64,000 bases of DNA. Source: a virus. The DNA lies in the IMG/VR virus record IMGVR_UViG_3300032213_001988, positions 62,001 through 126,000 of that record. One strand, given 5' to 3'. Position numbers and translations under genes: made by a program. The first letter of the stretch is position 1; every line of letters begins with the position of its first letter. Below, piece after piece: positions 32,898-62,260 of the stretch. The notes under the pieces were generated by a model that saw only the letters and a program-made list of their open reading frames with translations, made no database searches and had not been told where the DNA came from.

Positions 32898-33033
32898 TTG
32901 AAGAGGAGAGAGTCCCACAACTCTCTCCCCTTCCCCACCATCGCCTTAAAGTTAGATACGCGGAGCGGCGTATTGTTTCCGACCCCTGCAGGTTTCGAGT
33001 CGTTCAGGTGACCAGCGCCTGTCCTCCGCGTAT
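32898..33033 (-). ncRNA. stand-alone structured RNA (element A)
   Basis: The predicted transcript starts at 33033 exactly with one strand of a long stem: ATACGCGGAG pairs with CTCCGCGTAT about 70 bases on. The enclosed part has GGTCACCTGAACG and CGGAAACAAT, both shared with the leader at 41793-41868. A Rho-independent type hairpin follows (GGAGAGAGT with ACTCTCTCC, 32928-32905), then a T/A-rich stretch. No reading frame is preceded by a start signal, so this looks like a roughly 135-nt RNA with its own promoter and terminator. No known family is recognised. Confidence 0.65.
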
Positions 33034-41792: not shown

Positions 41793-41868
41793 ATACACAG
41801 GGCGCCGGGATTGTTTCCGTCCCGCATGCGTTACGAACGTTCAGGTGACCACCGGTCACCCTGTGTAT
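41793..41868 (-). ncRNA. structured leader RNA (element B)
   Basis: From the predicted start at 41868 the leader reads ATACACAGGG, which pairs with CCCTGTGTAT at its 3' end (41802-41793) to close the element. Inside, GTGACCggtGGTCAC and CGGGAcggaaacaaTCCCG form hairpins. GGTCACCTGAACG and CGGAAACAAT are shared with RNA A at 32898-33033. It precedes the ribosome binding site of the 56-aa gene by about 20 bases, as a riboswitch or protein-binding leader would. Not a recognised riboswitch class. Confidence 0.65.
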
Positions 41869-49048: not shown

Positions 49049-52000
49049 ATGCAGCTCCGCCCAAAAGGCGAGGGAGAGCGCGCACTAAGTAGCAAGACCA
49101 AATTATTACTTACCGCAGGTATGGTAGGTACAGGCGTTGCCCTGTCTTCTTCATCTTCCTACGCAAATGAAAGTACCACCAGTACCCAAAACACGGATAC
49201 TAGTGGCACTTCAACAAATACTACTTCTTCTTCTCAGCAAGGGTCTTCAGCGCCATCACAGTCGCAAGAATCCCAAGGAACGCAAAGTTCGCAAGGAACC
49301 CAACAGCAAACGACATCCAGTCCATCAACATCCCTCTCTTCATCGGTTGATACTAATAGTACCACGTTAACTGCAAAAGTAGAACAAATCAACACAGTTC
49401 TATCTACCGTTACCCAACCAACCGAGACTGTCACAACAACTGTTGCAAATGCAACCACTCAGGTCACCGAGGCAGCCACAGCCCAACAAGCAACTACTAC
49501 TGCACAGGCAACCCTTGCTACTGCGACAACAAGTGTGGCTACCGCAACCCAGGAAGTCGCAACAGCAACCACACAGGTTACGACTGCGCAGGTAGCTGCA
49601 GGTGAAGCAGCCAGCACAGCCGCGACCGCTGAGGCAGCAGTAACTACTGCCACGACAACTTTCTATCAAGAGAACGCAAATCTAGGAACTGCAACCTCTA
49701 CGCTTTCTACTGCCCAGACTACAGCAGCAACTACGCAGGCGGCAGCAGACGCTTCCGCGGCACCAACAACAGTTGTTCGCACTGAGACCTTTACAGGGAA
49801 TCAGGTCAACAACACATCTGGCACAGGAGCTGTTGCAGTTGAGATAAATGGAACAACACCCGTTACCTCATCAAATCAGTCAGGAACCTTCATTGGTGGT
49901 AACCACAATCCACAGGGTGGAATTGTTTCCGGTGCAGGTCTTAACCTTCAATTCGCTTCTCAACCAGTTGTTATTCGTTTCCTTAACTCCTCAGTTCATA
50001 CTGTTGACAAGGTAGAGTTTGGCGTCTACGCGACAAACGGTGACAGCTCAGCAACTGTTACCTACACCGATGGAACAACATCTAACTTTACAATTGAAAA
50101 TAACGTTGGAACTCAAAACGGTCAGCCAAATACTACGTACACTCACATTGAGACAGTTACCGCTTCCGGTGACAAGAAGATTCACGAGATTCGTCTTAAC
50201 CCTAATACAAATGACTGGTACATCGTTGACAACATTGCCGTAACAACACAGGTAGCAGGAACACCAGATCCTCAGGCAATTGCAGCAGCCGAGGCAGCAG
50301 CCGCAGCTCTTGTTGCAGCGCAGGCAGCGTATGACGCACAACTCGCAGTTCGCGATGCATCACATGCAGCGTGGGGCGCAGCGCACGTTGCTGCCAATGC
50401 TGCCAACGCAACGCTTGCAACAGCGACTCAAGCAGTTACCTCTGCAGAGACAGTTTTATCTACTGCGCAGGCAGCTGCGTCTACTGCACAGGCACAGGTT
50501 GTTTCTGCCACCATAGAGGTAGCAGCAGCTACCGTTACTCAAAAGACTGAAGGAGATCAGGCAGCGGTTGCGGTTGCTAACGCGCAGGTTGCAGTATCAA
50601 ATGCAGTCATTCCAGTTATTACTACAACATTGAATGAGACCAAGGCAGTTGACATTACCCCAACAACAATTACAAATACTGTTGTTGCTATTGCTGAAAC
50701 AGCCATTGCGGATGCAAGTACTGCAATCGTTGCTGCGGAAACAAAGAAAACTATTGCAGATGGTTTACAGGCAGCTGCAGGTGCAACTACAACTGTTACA
50801 TCAGCTACCGAGGTTGTTGCTGACAAGACGCAGGTACTTGCAGCTGCTACTACAGCAGTTGATGCCCAAGAGGTAGTTGTTGATACTGCGCAGGCTGCAA
50901 AGGATGCGGCACAGACAGTTGTTAACGCTGCAACATCACAAGGTTTACAGGTAACCGTCTACAACGTGCAAGGACAAAACAACGCACCAATTGTTAACTC
51001 AGGTACTCCTGTTCTTCGCACGTTTACAGATACAAATGGAGTTAACGAGCAGTGGGGCAGTGGTTTAGTTGCAGGTTCATCTCGTGCAGAAGATGTTGTT
51101 GTTAAGTATGAAGGAACATGGACACCAACAGAGTCAGGAACACAGGTGTGGCACACACCAGCAGATGACGGTGTAAAACTTTTCCTTGATGGAACACAGG
51201 TTGTCTTTGACTGGTTTGATAAAGGCGGCGGAGGTTCCGTAATCAACGTGCAAGCTACCGCGGGAACATCAAAGACATTCACGATGTGGTACTACGAAAA
51301 TGGTGGTGGTGCGTTTGTTCAGCTTCTGCGTAATACAGGTTCTGGTTGGCAGGTAATCCCTGGAACTGAGTTCACAACATCATCTGCAACTCAAGAACAA
51401 AAGAATACACTTGCAGCAGCGGTTGCAGCTCTTAACACCGAGACAACTATTCTTACGTCTCTTGAGGCAACAGAAGCTCAGGCACAAACAAATCTTACAT
51501 CTGCGCAGGCAACTCTTGTTCTAGCCCAGTCCGCTGAGACTGCACGCACAGAGTACGTCTCACTTGCGCAGATAGCAATAACAGCTACCGCCGTTGCAGT
51601 TGACGCGGTACAGGACGCACAAATTGTTGTGTATCAAACAAAGGCTCAACAGGAAGCAGATCAAGCAGCTGCAGATGCAGCAGCGGCGTATGCAGCTCAA
51701 GTTGCTGCTCAGCAACAGGCAGCACAGATTGCAGCTCAACAAGCAGCATTAAGAGCTCAGGCAGACGCTCAGGCAGCAGAGGCTGCACGTCAAGCAGCGC
51801 TAGCAGAGCAGGCAAGAATTGCAGCTGAACTTGCTGAGGCACAGGCATTAGCTCAAAAGGCTGCGGCAGAAGCTGCAGAGGCTGCACAACAAGAACAAGC
51901 ACGTCAACAAGCTATTGAATTACAAAAAGCTGCAGCAGAAGAAGCAGCACGTCAACAAGCGTTAGCAGAAGCTGCTAAGGTTGCAGCGGAGGCTGCGGCG

Positions 52001-53314
52001 GCTCAAGCTGCTCTTGACGCAGAGGCGGCTGCTGTTGCAGAGGCTGCTCGTCTTGCAGCTGAGTTAGCTGCTCAGCAACAAGCTCAACAAGATGCTGATC
52101 AGTCGAACTCAAACTCAGATGCCACTGAATCCACTGATAATACGGATCCGAATACAGACTCATCTAATCAGAATCCGGATCAAGATCAAGATCCTCAAGG
52201 GCCTGACTCAGAGACCGAGCAGCCAGGTGACCAAGAAGAGCAGCCAGGAGACCAAACAGACTCGTCGCAAGAACAAACAAACCCAGACGATGACTCTTCT
52301 TCAACTGACGACTCCTCTAATCCAACGGATGAAACTGATACCAACACTGAAGATAATTCTGAAGACTCAGAAGCTGAGACTCCAGACACAGAAGATCCAG
52401 AGACAACTGATCCGACTGAGAATCCAGATGATTCAGAGTCGTCTCAAGAAGAGGATGTTCCACTAGAAGATAATAACACTTCTGAGGAAGAAGTAAACGC
52501 CGAGGTTGATGACGCTCTTGAAGACGGAAAAGTTACTGCCGACGAGGTTGAAGCTATTGCCGAGTCAATGGCAGCTGACGGAGAAGTTAGCGCGGAGGAA
52601 ACAGATCAACTCGTTGAAGCTCTATCCGAGGACGGAAAACTTACAACCAATGAGGTTGCATCTGTTCTTGACGCTCTCGCAGGAGACGGTGAAGTTTCCA
52701 AGGAGGATGTTGCGGCAATCGTTGCGCTTGTCTCCGGTGATGGCAACCTAACCAATGCTGAAAAAGATATTGTTGCAGATGCGCTCGTTGAACAGTTTGC
52801 CGGTGAAAAGGGTGTAGATGTTAACGCGGTTGCAGAGGCAGGCATTGACCTTGCAGATCTACCTCCTGATACACCTATTGAACTTAATAACGGCGTGGTA
52901 ATTACCGCCGAGGTTGGCAATGCTTTTGAGACACTTGCGAACCCTGACGAGTTACTTGGCGCAATACTCACAGACCCTGGACAGGTCCTCTTAGCCCTTG
53001 GAAGTCTGGGCGCGGATATGTCTGAGGAGGAACGTCGAGAGTCCGAGCAAGTCATTGTGGCAGCCGTTGTTGCTACAGGTATTGCCGTTCAATCAGCGGT
53101 TGCAGCGGCGGGAGCAGCAACTCAGGCAGCGGCGGCTGCAGCAACTTCTGGAGGCGGTGCTCCTTCAGGTGGAGGATCTAAGGGTGGCGGTGCAGGTGGA
53201 CCTGCTGCTCCACGTAACGATGCAGGTGGTCCTGTTGGACGTGAAGGCGGCACCAAACCTAAGAAGACAGTTAAGAAACAAAATAAAATAAGAATAAGAA
53301 GGAGACCTAAATAA
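49049..53314 (+). CDS. giant secreted or fibrous protein with PA14-like domain
   Basis: A 1421-aa protein starting after AAGGAAGTAA. The N-terminus has a signal or anchor (TKLLLTAGMVGTGVALSSSS). A Thr/Ala repeat-rich stretch follows. Residues about 245-400 form a beta domain (VAVEINGTTPVTSSNQSGTF), and about 634-775 a PA14-like domain (RTFTDTNGVNEQWGSGLV, DDGVKLFLDGTQVVFDWFDK). Then a long Ala/Gln coil, an acidic linker (about 1016-1150), five 18-residue repeats of the type DGKVTADEVEAIAESMA (about 1150-1244) and a basic tail. PA14 domains bind sugars; this may be a fibre, adhesin or host-surface protein. Product is far from the tail genes. Confidence 0.6.
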   Translation: MQLRPKGEGERALSSKTKLLLTAGMVGTGVALSSSSSYANESTTSTQNTDTSGTSTNTTSSSQQGSSAPSQSQESQGTQSSQGTQQQTTSSPSTSLSSSVDTNSTTLTAKVEQINTVLSTVTQPTETVTTTVANATTQVTEAATAQQATTTAQATLATATTSVATATQEVATATTQVTTAQVAAGEAASTAATAEAAVTTATTTFYQENANLGTATSTLSTAQTTAATTQAAADASAAPTTVVRTETFTGNQVNNTSGTGAVAVEINGTTPVTSSNQSGTFIGGNHNPQGGIVSGAGLNLQFASQPVVIRFLNSSVHTVDKVEFGVYATNGDSSATVTYTDGTTSNFTIENNVGTQNGQPNTTYTHIETVTASGDKKIHEIRLNPNTNDWYIVDNIAVTTQVAGTPDPQAIAAAEAAAAALVAAQAAYDAQLAVRDASHAAWGAAHVAANAANATLATATQAVTSAETVLSTAQAAASTAQAQVVSATIEVAAATVTQKTEGDQAAVAVANAQVAVSNAVIPVITTTLNETKAVDITPTTITNTVVAIAETAIADASTAIVAAETKKTIADGLQAAAGATTTVTSATEVVADKTQVLAAATTAVDAQEVVVDTAQAAKDAAQTVVNAATSQGLQVTVYNVQGQNNAPIVNSGTPVLRTFTDTNGVNEQWGSGLVAGSSRAEDVVVKYEGTWTPTESGTQVWHTPADDGVKLFLDGTQVVFDWFDKGGGGSVINVQATAGTSKTFTMWYYENGGGAFVQLLRNTGSGWQVIPGTEFTTSSATQEQKNTLAAAVAALNTETTILTSLEATEAQAQTNLTSAQATLVLAQSAETARTEYVSLAQIAITATAVAVDAVQDAQIVVYQTKAQQEADQAAADAAAAYAAQVAAQQQAAQIAAQQAALRAQADAQAAEAARQAALAEQARIAAELAEAQALAQKAAAEAAEAAQQEQARQQAIELQKAAAEEAARQQALAEAAKVAAEAAAAQAALDAEAAAVAEAARLAAELAAQQQAQQDADQSNSNSDATESTDNTDPNTDSSNQNPDQDQDPQGPDSETEQPGDQEEQPGDQTDSSQEQTNPDDDSSSTDDSSNPTDETDTNTEDNSEDSEAETPDTEDPETTDPTENPDDSESSQEEDVPLEDNNTSEEEVNAEVDDALEDGKVTADEVEAIAESMAADGEVSAEETDQLVEALSEDGKLTTNEVASVLDALAGDGEVSKEDVAAIVALVSGDGNLTNAEKDIVADALVEQFAGEKGVDVNAVAEAGIDLADLPPDTPIELNNGVVITAEVGNAFETLANPDELLGAILTDPGQVLLALGSLGADMSEEERRESEQVIVAAVVATGIAVQSAVAAAGAATQAAAAAATSGGGAPSGGGSKGGGAGGPAAPRNDAGGPVGREGGTKPKKTVKKQNKIRIRRRPK

Positions 53315-60220: not shown

Positions 60221-62260
60221 TTACTGGTTGTCTTTAATAAGTTTGATTTCACATGCATCAGTTGTGCAGTACATTTCTCCAACAGCGTCCGCGGCCATAC
60301 CTGCGTACACACCGGCGAAGTCAATAGGGAACAGCTTCATGATTGCGTCCTCGTACTCCTCCTCGGTGATTTGAGTATAAGGCATCTGTGGGTAAACAAA
60401 GTTACCTGACGGTAAGAAGGACACAGTCTTTAACTGGCCGTCGTACATATGCAATACTGTTCCTACATGCTCAGATTCCTTCTCAGGGTCAAATGAGACG
60501 GTTACAGAGACAGAGTTGTCAGACCAGTAACGTTGTGCGGTTGCAGCAAGAGACATCTTTTCAAAGATGGTTACATCCTTCTCAGCACGTTCTGCGAGAG
60601 ACTTGATAGGGAAGAACACGACGCTTGTAGAGTCTGGTGACTCTGATGCAGGCTCAACTCGATAGTTTGCCATCTTGAATAGTGGAAGCATTGGATCTGA
60701 GTTTGCAAAGCGAATAGCACGGTTAAAGAACTTACCGCCCACTGTCCAGTGTACTCCTGGTGACTCACCAGCAAGAATTGAAACTGTTCCTGATGGCTTA
60801 ACTGTTGTCATCTTAATTGACTCACGAATACCAAGCCACTCTGAATAAGTGTTGTCGTATCCCTTGACTACTTTGTACCCTTCATCCATCCAATCACGAA
60901 GTGTAGGAAGTCCCTTACGGTCTGCAAAGTTAGCAACTCCGGAGATTGATGTTCCGATGCGGCGATTACGTTGCATGATGGCGTTTGTCTCTTCCCAGTG
61001 TGTAGGGAGCAGGGTTACGGTCTTTGCGTATAGATACGCAAACTTAAGCGTGCGCTTAAAATCATCTAGGTCATCGTGACGATTTAGATATGTCTCAACA
61101 AGCGTGCAGCACTCATATGATTCTAATGACTGCTCTGCACAAGGGTTGTATCCAGCAATACGCCAGTCCTTGTTGTTGATTGGATCTACAAGACGGCCAT
61201 ACTTACGGGATACGTCCATCCAAATAACACCAGGCTCACCATTTAATGCAATACCTGGAACAATCTTATCTAGGTCCTGACCTACGGTTGTTTCAACTGA
61301 GTTGTTTGACATCCAGCCCCAACCAGGTGCTGCAGGGTCATAGCTGTTACGCTCTGGGAACTTCTCTGCGTTCTTTAAGCTTAAGAACGTGTCATCATCT
61401 AGTCGGCCAATAAGAAGCTCTGCCGAGCGGCGAACGTTGCCCGAGACTACGCAAACACCAATAAGATTTCCAATATCAGCAATGTCCGTGCGAGTAACCT
61501 TCTCACCAGCACGACCGTTAAATACCTTACGGATATAGTTGTGCAGCTTCTCTAGCGGCTCATGTCCTGCGGCGGTTCCACCAAATGTCTTGATTGGGAC
61601 GCCAGCAGGGCGAACTTCAGAGTAGTCAAACTTCATAGTAGCTTGATCTGGCTTCAAGTATGAGTTAAGAATCATTGATAGTGACTCAACCCAGCCTTCG
61701 CGAGTATCTGGAATAACGTATGTGTTCTCTGCAGCTTGCGGTGCATAGATTGTAAAGTCCTTGTCTGCACCCTTATCATCAAAGCCAACACCAACGCCAA
61801 GCATTGATGCTTCCATTAGAAATGCAAATGGACGTGCAGGGTTTGCCTTTGTCATTTCCATTGTTGAAACAAATGCACAGTTTTGCAGTGCAGCAGAGTT
61901 GCGTTGCTTGTTTACAATGTCTGTTCCCATTACCCAAAGCCCACGGCCAGGAGGTGTCCACTTTAGATTAAATAAGCGGTCAAAGCCGTCCTTGGCAGAA
62001 GCCTGCGCCTTTGCATCGTTCCACGGAAGTCTTTGACTTTTGCAGTGATCTTTCTGAATAGAGTACATGCCATTGATGACACGCTCACAAACGTCAACCC
62101 ATGTTTCCTTGGTGCCATCTTCTTTTAGTCTAGAGTACGTGCGTAAAAAGGTAATCTCTCCGACAGAGTTTCCAGCTGCATCTGTGTAACCAAATGGTGC
62201 TTTCTTTCCTTTATATCCTGCTACGAATTCTTCATTTAGACGAAAAGAGAAAAGGCTCAC
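60221..62260 (-). CDS. nrdJ: B12-dependent class II ribonucleotide reductase
   Basis: A 679-aa protein with a GTG start after GGGAGCGTAGC. It matches the monomeric adenosylcobalamin-dependent (Lactobacillus-type) reductase: LQNCAFVSTMEMTKANPARP, ESYECCTLVETY after NPCAEQSLE (thiyl-radical Cys) and a C-terminal YCTTDACEIKL redox Cys pair. It makes deoxynucleotides from ribonucleotides for phage replication and depends on host B12. It reduces triphosphates in the family's known biochemistry. Confidence 0.9.
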   Translation of the reverse strand: MSLFSFRLNEEFVAGYKGKKAPFGYTDAAGNSVGEITFLRTYSRLKEDGTKETWVDVCERVINGMYSIQKDHCKSQRLPWNDAKAQASAKDGFDRLFNLKWTPPGRGLWVMGTDIVNKQRNSAALQNCAFVSTMEMTKANPARPFAFLMEASMLGVGVGFDDKGADKDFTIYAPQAAENTYVIPDTREGWVESLSMILNSYLKPDQATMKFDYSEVRPAGVPIKTFGGTAAGHEPLEKLHNYIRKVFNGRAGEKVTRTDIADIGNLIGVCVVSGNVRRSAELLIGRLDDDTFLSLKNAEKFPERNSYDPAAPGWGWMSNNSVETTVGQDLDKIVPGIALNGEPGVIWMDVSRKYGRLVDPINNKDWRIAGYNPCAEQSLESYECCTLVETYLNRHDDLDDFKRTLKFAYLYAKTVTLLPTHWEETNAIMQRNRRIGTSISGVANFADRKGLPTLRDWMDEGYKVVKGYDNTYSEWLGIRESIKMTTVKPSGTVSILAGESPGVHWTVGGKFFNRAIRFANSDPMLPLFKMANYRVEPASESPDSTSVVFFPIKSLAERAEKDVTIFEKMSLAATAQRYWSDNSVSVTVSFDPEKESEHVGTVLHMYDGQLKTVSFLPSGNFVYPQMPYTQITEEEYEDAIMKLFPIDFAGVYAGMAADAVGEMYCTTDACEIKLIKDNQ

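Follow-up and report, generated by a model that had tools for sequence, protein, structure and literature searches.

The 64,000-nucleotide (nt) stretch of viral DNA analysed here (the window; positions 62,001 to 126,000 of IMG/VR record IMGVR_UViG_3300032213_001988) carries two copies, RNA A and element B, of a previously unrecorded phage RNA family with a core of about 78 nt. RNA A lies on the minus strand, from position 33033 to about 32900, and element B is on the same strand at 41868-41793. The family is sharply delimited, shows strong covariation and is absent from Rfam, and the carriers found in this analysis are uncultured viruses only. Its most telling feature, missed by the original prediction (a reading of the window's sequence alone that had singled out RNA A), is a covarying self-complementary apical loop, which predicts an RNA-RNA contact between molecules and is unusual for so small an RNA. 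Our preferred, still tentative, reading is of a 5′-terminal phage RNA that self-dimerises by loop-loop kissing, is largely independent of the next gene and most likely acts in trans as a scaffold or decoy.

Members, start and fold of the RNA family

The family comprises 67 copies in 66 virus records, representing 43 distinct sequences when both copies of the window's phage are counted. A pattern scan of IMG/VR with two core words found 36 virus contigs, and relaxed patterns together with a covariance model raised this to 67 copies. Members score 68-99 bits and nothing else in the searched loci exceeds 19, a clean gap; RNA A itself matches at 76.4 bits (E 9e-22; 33033-32956, from the predicted +1 to the end of the closing stem) and element B at 67.9 bits (E 7e-19). 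When only the 3′ half and helix P2 served as anchor, scanning returned 36 stretches, of which 35 were already known. The other, L321, departs from the 5′ core at one position, with GGUAACC in place of GGUCACC, and as a later-found relative is left out of the 67-copy set and the covariance model. Because this 3′-anchored scan found just one further change, conservation of the 5′ core is natural and not only a product of the search pattern. Relaxing the 3′ half instead added no other real form, and an over-relaxed pattern scan gave chance matches only.

The claim that RNA A is a novel structured RNA with a conserved core and no known family was borne out by these homologues, by covariation in three helices and by searches elsewhere. 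Rfam 15 at curated gathering thresholds gave no match anywhere in the window, and permissive Rfam scans of A, B and two homologues gave sub-threshold matches only. Against cultured phages and plasmids, BLAST searches with the element yielded fragmentary chance matches or none, and none of the 11 matches from a pattern scan of bacterial and archaeal genomes has the fold. Zero candidates were found in the cultured relatives DSL-LC01, Pumpernickel, Zooman, A3Wally, Racecar, GodonK and Forza, an absence that can be called firm for DSL-LC01 alone, because its entire sequence was searched directly as well, and that is weak for the other six. A literature search with the core words retrieved unrelated microRNA papers only. 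A 2023 survey of viruses and phages reportedly lists more than ten thousand candidates for structured RNAs, a set that may include the motif.

By terminase and portal, the carrier phages lie near Actinomycetia phage DSL-LC01 and phages of Microbacterium, Arthrobacter and Gordonia, and by ribonucleotide reductase near DSL-LC01; the window itself encodes a class II (B12-dependent) ribonucleotide reductase at 60221-62260 that is 81% identical to that of DSL-LC01. At the thresholds used there is one copy per record, including records of 99-161 kb, and two, A and B, in the window's phage.

The original prediction had also given RNA A its own promoter and a start exactly at the first base of a 10-base-pair closing stem, and both hold. 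An extended -10 promoter, CTGATATAATTATCC, occupies 33049-33035 of the minus strand, with a -10 TATAAT at 33045-33040 preceded by an upstream TG and lying seven bases ahead of 33033, the predicted +1 and base 1 of the perfect 10-base-pair stem P1. Homologues repeat this arrangement. In 38 of the 44 distinct contexts (86%), transcription from a sigma-70-type promoter is predicted to begin at base 1 of P1, and the promoter-start signal peaks at this offset and is 0.18% at other offsets. This makes it very probable that the family RNA forms the 5′ end of a transcript.

The fold consists of three helices, all of which covary. In RNA A, the P1 strands ATACGCGGAG (33033-33024) and CTCCGCGTAT (32965-32956) pair perfectly, followed by P2, in which GGCG at 33019-33016 pairs with CGCC at 32970-32967. 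Between P1 and P3 sits an asymmetric internal loop that is almost unchanged across the family: its 5′ side, CUGGUCACCUGAA (33015-33003), varies mainly between GGU and GGA in the 67 copies, and on its 3′ side, GAAACAAUA (32979-32971), GAAACAA is invariant. The P3 hairpin (33002-32980; stem 33002-32998 with 32984-32980) closes the structure. P1, at least 10 base pairs long, varies completely in sequence, with all ten modelled pairs double-changed across the family; P3 is paired in every sequence (100% of pair cells), with exchanges such as C-G to U-A, G-C to C-G and A-U to C-G.

A covariance-model search had been suggested as the check on this structure, and the covariation it brought out is strong: 17 of 20 pairs changed on both sides, with a covariation score that no shuffle reached. 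In the model-fitted alignment, which was fitted to the structure and so favours it, 95.6% of pair cells hold standard pairs, compared with 27-46% after shifting the partners by 1-3 columns. An ordinary MAFFT alignment exceeds its own slid controls too, with 79.0% of cells paired as against 24-52%. Single-sequence folding gives P1 a pairing probability of 0.90-1.00 in all members but L022, leaves the Shine-Dalgarno (SD) sequence mostly accessible and reveals no alternative fold, SD sequestration or switch. The 136-nt RNA A folds at -54.7 kcal/mol (z = -3.25 versus shuffles). Translation of a conserved frame, which had been named as evidence against a structured RNA, is not seen: each frame is open in 12 of the 44 contexts at most, and a protein-coding reading was rejected.

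The apical loop and its versions

In all 43 sequences the P3 loop terminates in an octamer of which at least 6 nt are self-complementary, with G-U pairs allowed. It exists in eight versions: CUCUAGAG, CUUGCAAG, CCUGCAGG, CGCAUGCG, CGCUAGCG, CUCCGGAG, ACCUAGGG and CUCUAGGG. Its two central, adjacent bases are UA, GC, AU or CG and no other combination, a pattern matched by 0 of 500 shuffles, and the three inner octamer pairs, the adjacent central pair included, are all standard in 43 of 43 distinct sequences. As adjacent bases are unable to pair within a hairpin, this covariation calls for pairing between two molecules; a symmetric DNA site is a less likely source of the pattern. Predicted octamer self-duplexes range from -8.6 to -14.3 kcal/mol.

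The versions also change between close relatives. A and B, within one phage, have different octamers: RNA A has CCUGCAGG at 32992-32985, the predicted kissing-dimer site and the only occurrence of this octamer in the window, whereas B has CGCAUGCG at 41830-41823. Related phages likewise have different octamers in otherwise near-identical RNAs (L140/L143, L014/L160 and L017/L025). Beginning 90 nt ahead of the core, L140 and L143 are identical as far as the bulge of the element, and within the element they differ only in the P3 hairpin, where the stem changes are compensated, and in one compensated change beside P2. Such exchanges between phages that are otherwise almost the same suggest that self-recognition is under selection. 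A bolder idea, which we consider rather improbable, is that a self-kissing RNA with a few interchangeable specificity alleles would let phages sense the dose of their own transcript, or tell self from co-infecting relatives, by homodimerisation.

Setting of RNA A and element B

RNA A had been described as a free-standing transcript ending in a terminator and lacking a translation start signal. The last of these claims is correct, in that no SD sequence with a start codon occurs between RNA A and the next promoter (32889-32875, minus strand, identified as a promoter motif match), and the next gene, which encodes 88 amino acids at 32852-32586 on the minus strand, has this promoter of its own; homologues of that gene lie directly 3′ of the RNA in L004, L007 and L030. 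The terminator is less certain. A 14-base-pair hairpin at 32933-32900 is real (arms 32933-32920 and 32913-32900, 93% complementary), but it is followed by CAATAACC, without a U-tract, and was not reported by a terminator scan, so that a terminator role is possible only and a 3′ stabiliser would be another candidate function. The hairpins after the free-standing copies in the window and in L020 share the loop TGTGGG and differ in stem sequence. Being free-standing is a property of the form of RNA A, its near relative L020 and G038, but not of element B and most homologues, which in form are messenger RNA (mRNA) leaders with an SD sequence and start codon 20-60 nt downstream.

The assertion that the core words recur only in element B stood for one of the two. 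GGTCACCTGAACG, at 33013-33001 in RNA A, has its only other exact window match in element B (41850-41838); allowing up to two mismatches there are five matches compared with 1.0 expected, and 0 of 100 shuffles reach five. CGGAAACAAT is also in element B but has a third exact copy at 49922-49931, inside the stretch of an open reading frame (ORF) for 1,421 amino acids on the opposite strand (49049-53314), which looks like chance. Separately, the extended -10 motif CTGATATAATTATCC has 19 matches with up to two mismatches compared with 0.04 expected, all on the minus strand between 27623 and 42563; these promoters apparently head small genes, and only 2 of the 19 carry the RNA.

Element B has its own promoter match, CTGATATAATTAGAC (41884-41870), with a predicted +1 at 41868, and heads a minus-strand operon. 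Its first member is a 56-amino-acid ORF (41763-41593) with the SD sequence GAAAGGA, and the rest (41393-38012) comprises three ORFs: one of 152 amino acids (41393-40935), a MoxR/CobS-like AAA ATPase (40888-39905) and a VWA/CobT-like protein (39799-38012). The order of the MoxR/CobS-like and VWA/CobT-like genes recurs behind the RNA in several relatives.

Across the family, the downstream genes are not conserved and differ widely between records. In several type II relatives the RNA is one unit in an array of promoter-gene-terminator units. In the pairs of related phages L006/L021, L039/L040 and L001/L010, the next gene cassette is present in one phage and missing from the other, with promoter and RNA intact in both; in L040, where the cassette is missing, a U-tract terminator lies directly 3′ of the RNA (G038/L040). 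At L024 and L036 the RNA directly abuts a small gene whose 5′ end is apparently gone; what is left of this gene in L024 is in frame with an ATG (CAATG) that lies within the RNA. A gene that by eye resembles a proteasome beta subunit or HslV (N-terminal nucleophile hydrolase) lies close to the RNA at 30 loci (for example L106 at +2494 and L113 at -768), on its upstream or its downstream side depending on the record. In L005 and L015, the first gene after the RNA encodes a secreted protein that by eye resembles a subtilisin-type protease (MKRLI...TIAVIDSGVN).

Possible roles and known systems

We favour an RNA with a function of its own because its neighbours vary, it is retained without the next gene, its copy number is low, its fold is 5′-terminal and its core is invariant. 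In such a scheme, P1 would close from the first transcribed base and hold the invariant asymmetric internal loop together with the apical hairpin P3. Two RNA copies would most likely form a kissing homodimer through the self-complementary six- to eight-base segment of the P3 loop, judging from its covariation. The RNA, possibly dimeric, would then most likely act in trans as a scaffold or decoy, mostly independent of the gene behind it, with the internal loop presented to a conserved partner, probably a host factor. Dimerisation in solution, action in trans and a binding partner are what we infer; identifying the factor that binds the internal loop would reveal how RNA is used by these phages on their hosts or on co-infecting phages.

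Several considerations weigh against this proposal. All of its support is computational, namely the family, fold, promoter position, low copy number, loop self-complementarity, allele switching and retention of the RNA without its neighbour gene. The SD sequence and start codon behind most copies keep a cis role possible, and the cassette deletions in the three phage pairs could be recent. P3 alone is thermodynamically weak in many members. Among genes common to eight RNA-bearing phages and absent from DSL-LC01 there is no obvious RNA-binding protein, and the co-occurrence candidates, named by eye, are generic only (for example zinc-ribbon, transglycosylase-like, membrane and glycosyltransferase-like proteins). 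Finally, a dimeric protein that binds DNA could, in theory, account for the symmetry of the loop, although P3 is off-centre on the palindrome.

Two rivals, an mRNA leader and a put-like antiterminator, are jointly about as likely as the trans-acting RNA. The leader, unlikely on its own and yet the foremost single alternative, would stabilise or regulate its mRNA by protecting the 5′ end from RNases, by controlling translation or by binding a ligand or protein. A stem from the first base, a nearby start codon with a mostly accessible SD sequence in most contexts, and the CobS/CobT-like operon behind B, with the same gene order behind the RNA in other records, all suit this explanation; however, records vary widely in which gene follows the RNA, some keep the RNA where that gene is missing, most matches of the promoter motif in the window lack the RNA, and neither an alternative fold or SD sequestration nor an Rfam riboswitch match was found. 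The riboswitch reading was rejected: the downstream genes form no consistent set, and single-sequence folding gives no alternative fold that controls the SD sequence or a terminator. The same two results speak against a cis-regulatory leader. Ranked next, and doubtful, is a put-like element, in which the nascent RNA would bind RNA polymerase and confer resistance to pausing and termination, allowing read-through of the terminators of small-gene arrays. The RNA is at the +1 of a transcription unit and has no fixed gene behind it; it is a compact element with an unvarying core, is present in few copies per genome and has co-oriented terminators downstream in many records; HK022 putL, too, lies just downstream of its promoter, and acts without a phage protein (PMC9378689). 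Yet separate promoters serve most of the downstream genes in several mapped type II records, where the unit of the RNA also often runs into a terminator soon after, so read-through is not needed there. The family model finds no match in HK022, put RNAs are two stem-loops rather than one hairpin with an internal loop, and antitermination leaves the self-complementary loop and its allele switching unexplained.

The remaining explanations fare worse. A DNA-level element, with the palindrome as the operator of a phage-specific dimeric repressor just downstream of the promoter and the RNA fold incidental, would account for a two-fold symmetric sequence about 40 base pairs downstream of +1 that varies between relatives as immunity operators do. 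We consider it very improbable: covariation marks P1, P2 and P3 as RNA helices; the palindrome is not centred within P3 (4-5 nt on one side and 0 on the other), so that P3 pairing is not part of an operator; and no repressor gene was noticed beside the RNA. A small self-cleaving ribozyme is scarcely credible. The words CUGAA...GAAAC on both sides of P3 recall the hammerhead core CUGANGA...GAAA, but the likeness is superficial, since the G8-A9 positions are absent, the bases in their place are covarying P3 pairs and Rfam reports no hammerhead match. The hammerhead was accordingly rejected as an assignment, its core here being CUGAA followed by a covarying P3 pair instead of CUGANGA.

Set beside known systems, the family has partial likenesses only. 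The HK022 put RNA, whose two stem-loops bind the beta′ zinc-binding domain of RNA polymerase, is likewise a short phage RNA with a conserved core, two copies in the phage genome and, for putL, a position just downstream of an early promoter (PMC9378689). Unlike it, the family RNA is one long hairpin with an asymmetric internal loop and a self-complementary apical loop, and its model goes unmatched in HK022. With the hammerhead ribozyme it has in common that CUGA and GAAA words flank a stem, but it is without the defining GA after CUGAN.

Other parallels lie in loop-loop pairing. The dimerisation initiation site (DIS) hairpin of retroviruses dimerises the viral RNA genome for packaging, and resembles the family RNA in its self-complementary apical six-base segment, in the unpaired purines 5′ of that segment and in being strain-variable yet always self-complementary; the family RNA, by contrast, is a transcript of a double-stranded DNA phage. 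The packaging RNA of phage phi29 is also a phage RNA with loop-loop pairing, which is predicted in our case, but it oligomerises into a ring through two different complementary loops, whereas the family RNA has one self-complementary loop; we know of no sequence relation between the two. Finally, OLE, ROOL and GOLLD are bacterial or phage RNAs shown to form RNA-only homo-oligomers by kissing loops with covarying intermolecular contacts (PMC12286853), a likeness in which the dimer of the family RNA is predicted only. Those are large, elaborate RNAs with Rfam entries (GOLLD often exceeds 800 nt), whereas the phage RNA described here, unrelated to them in sequence, is about 78 nt long.
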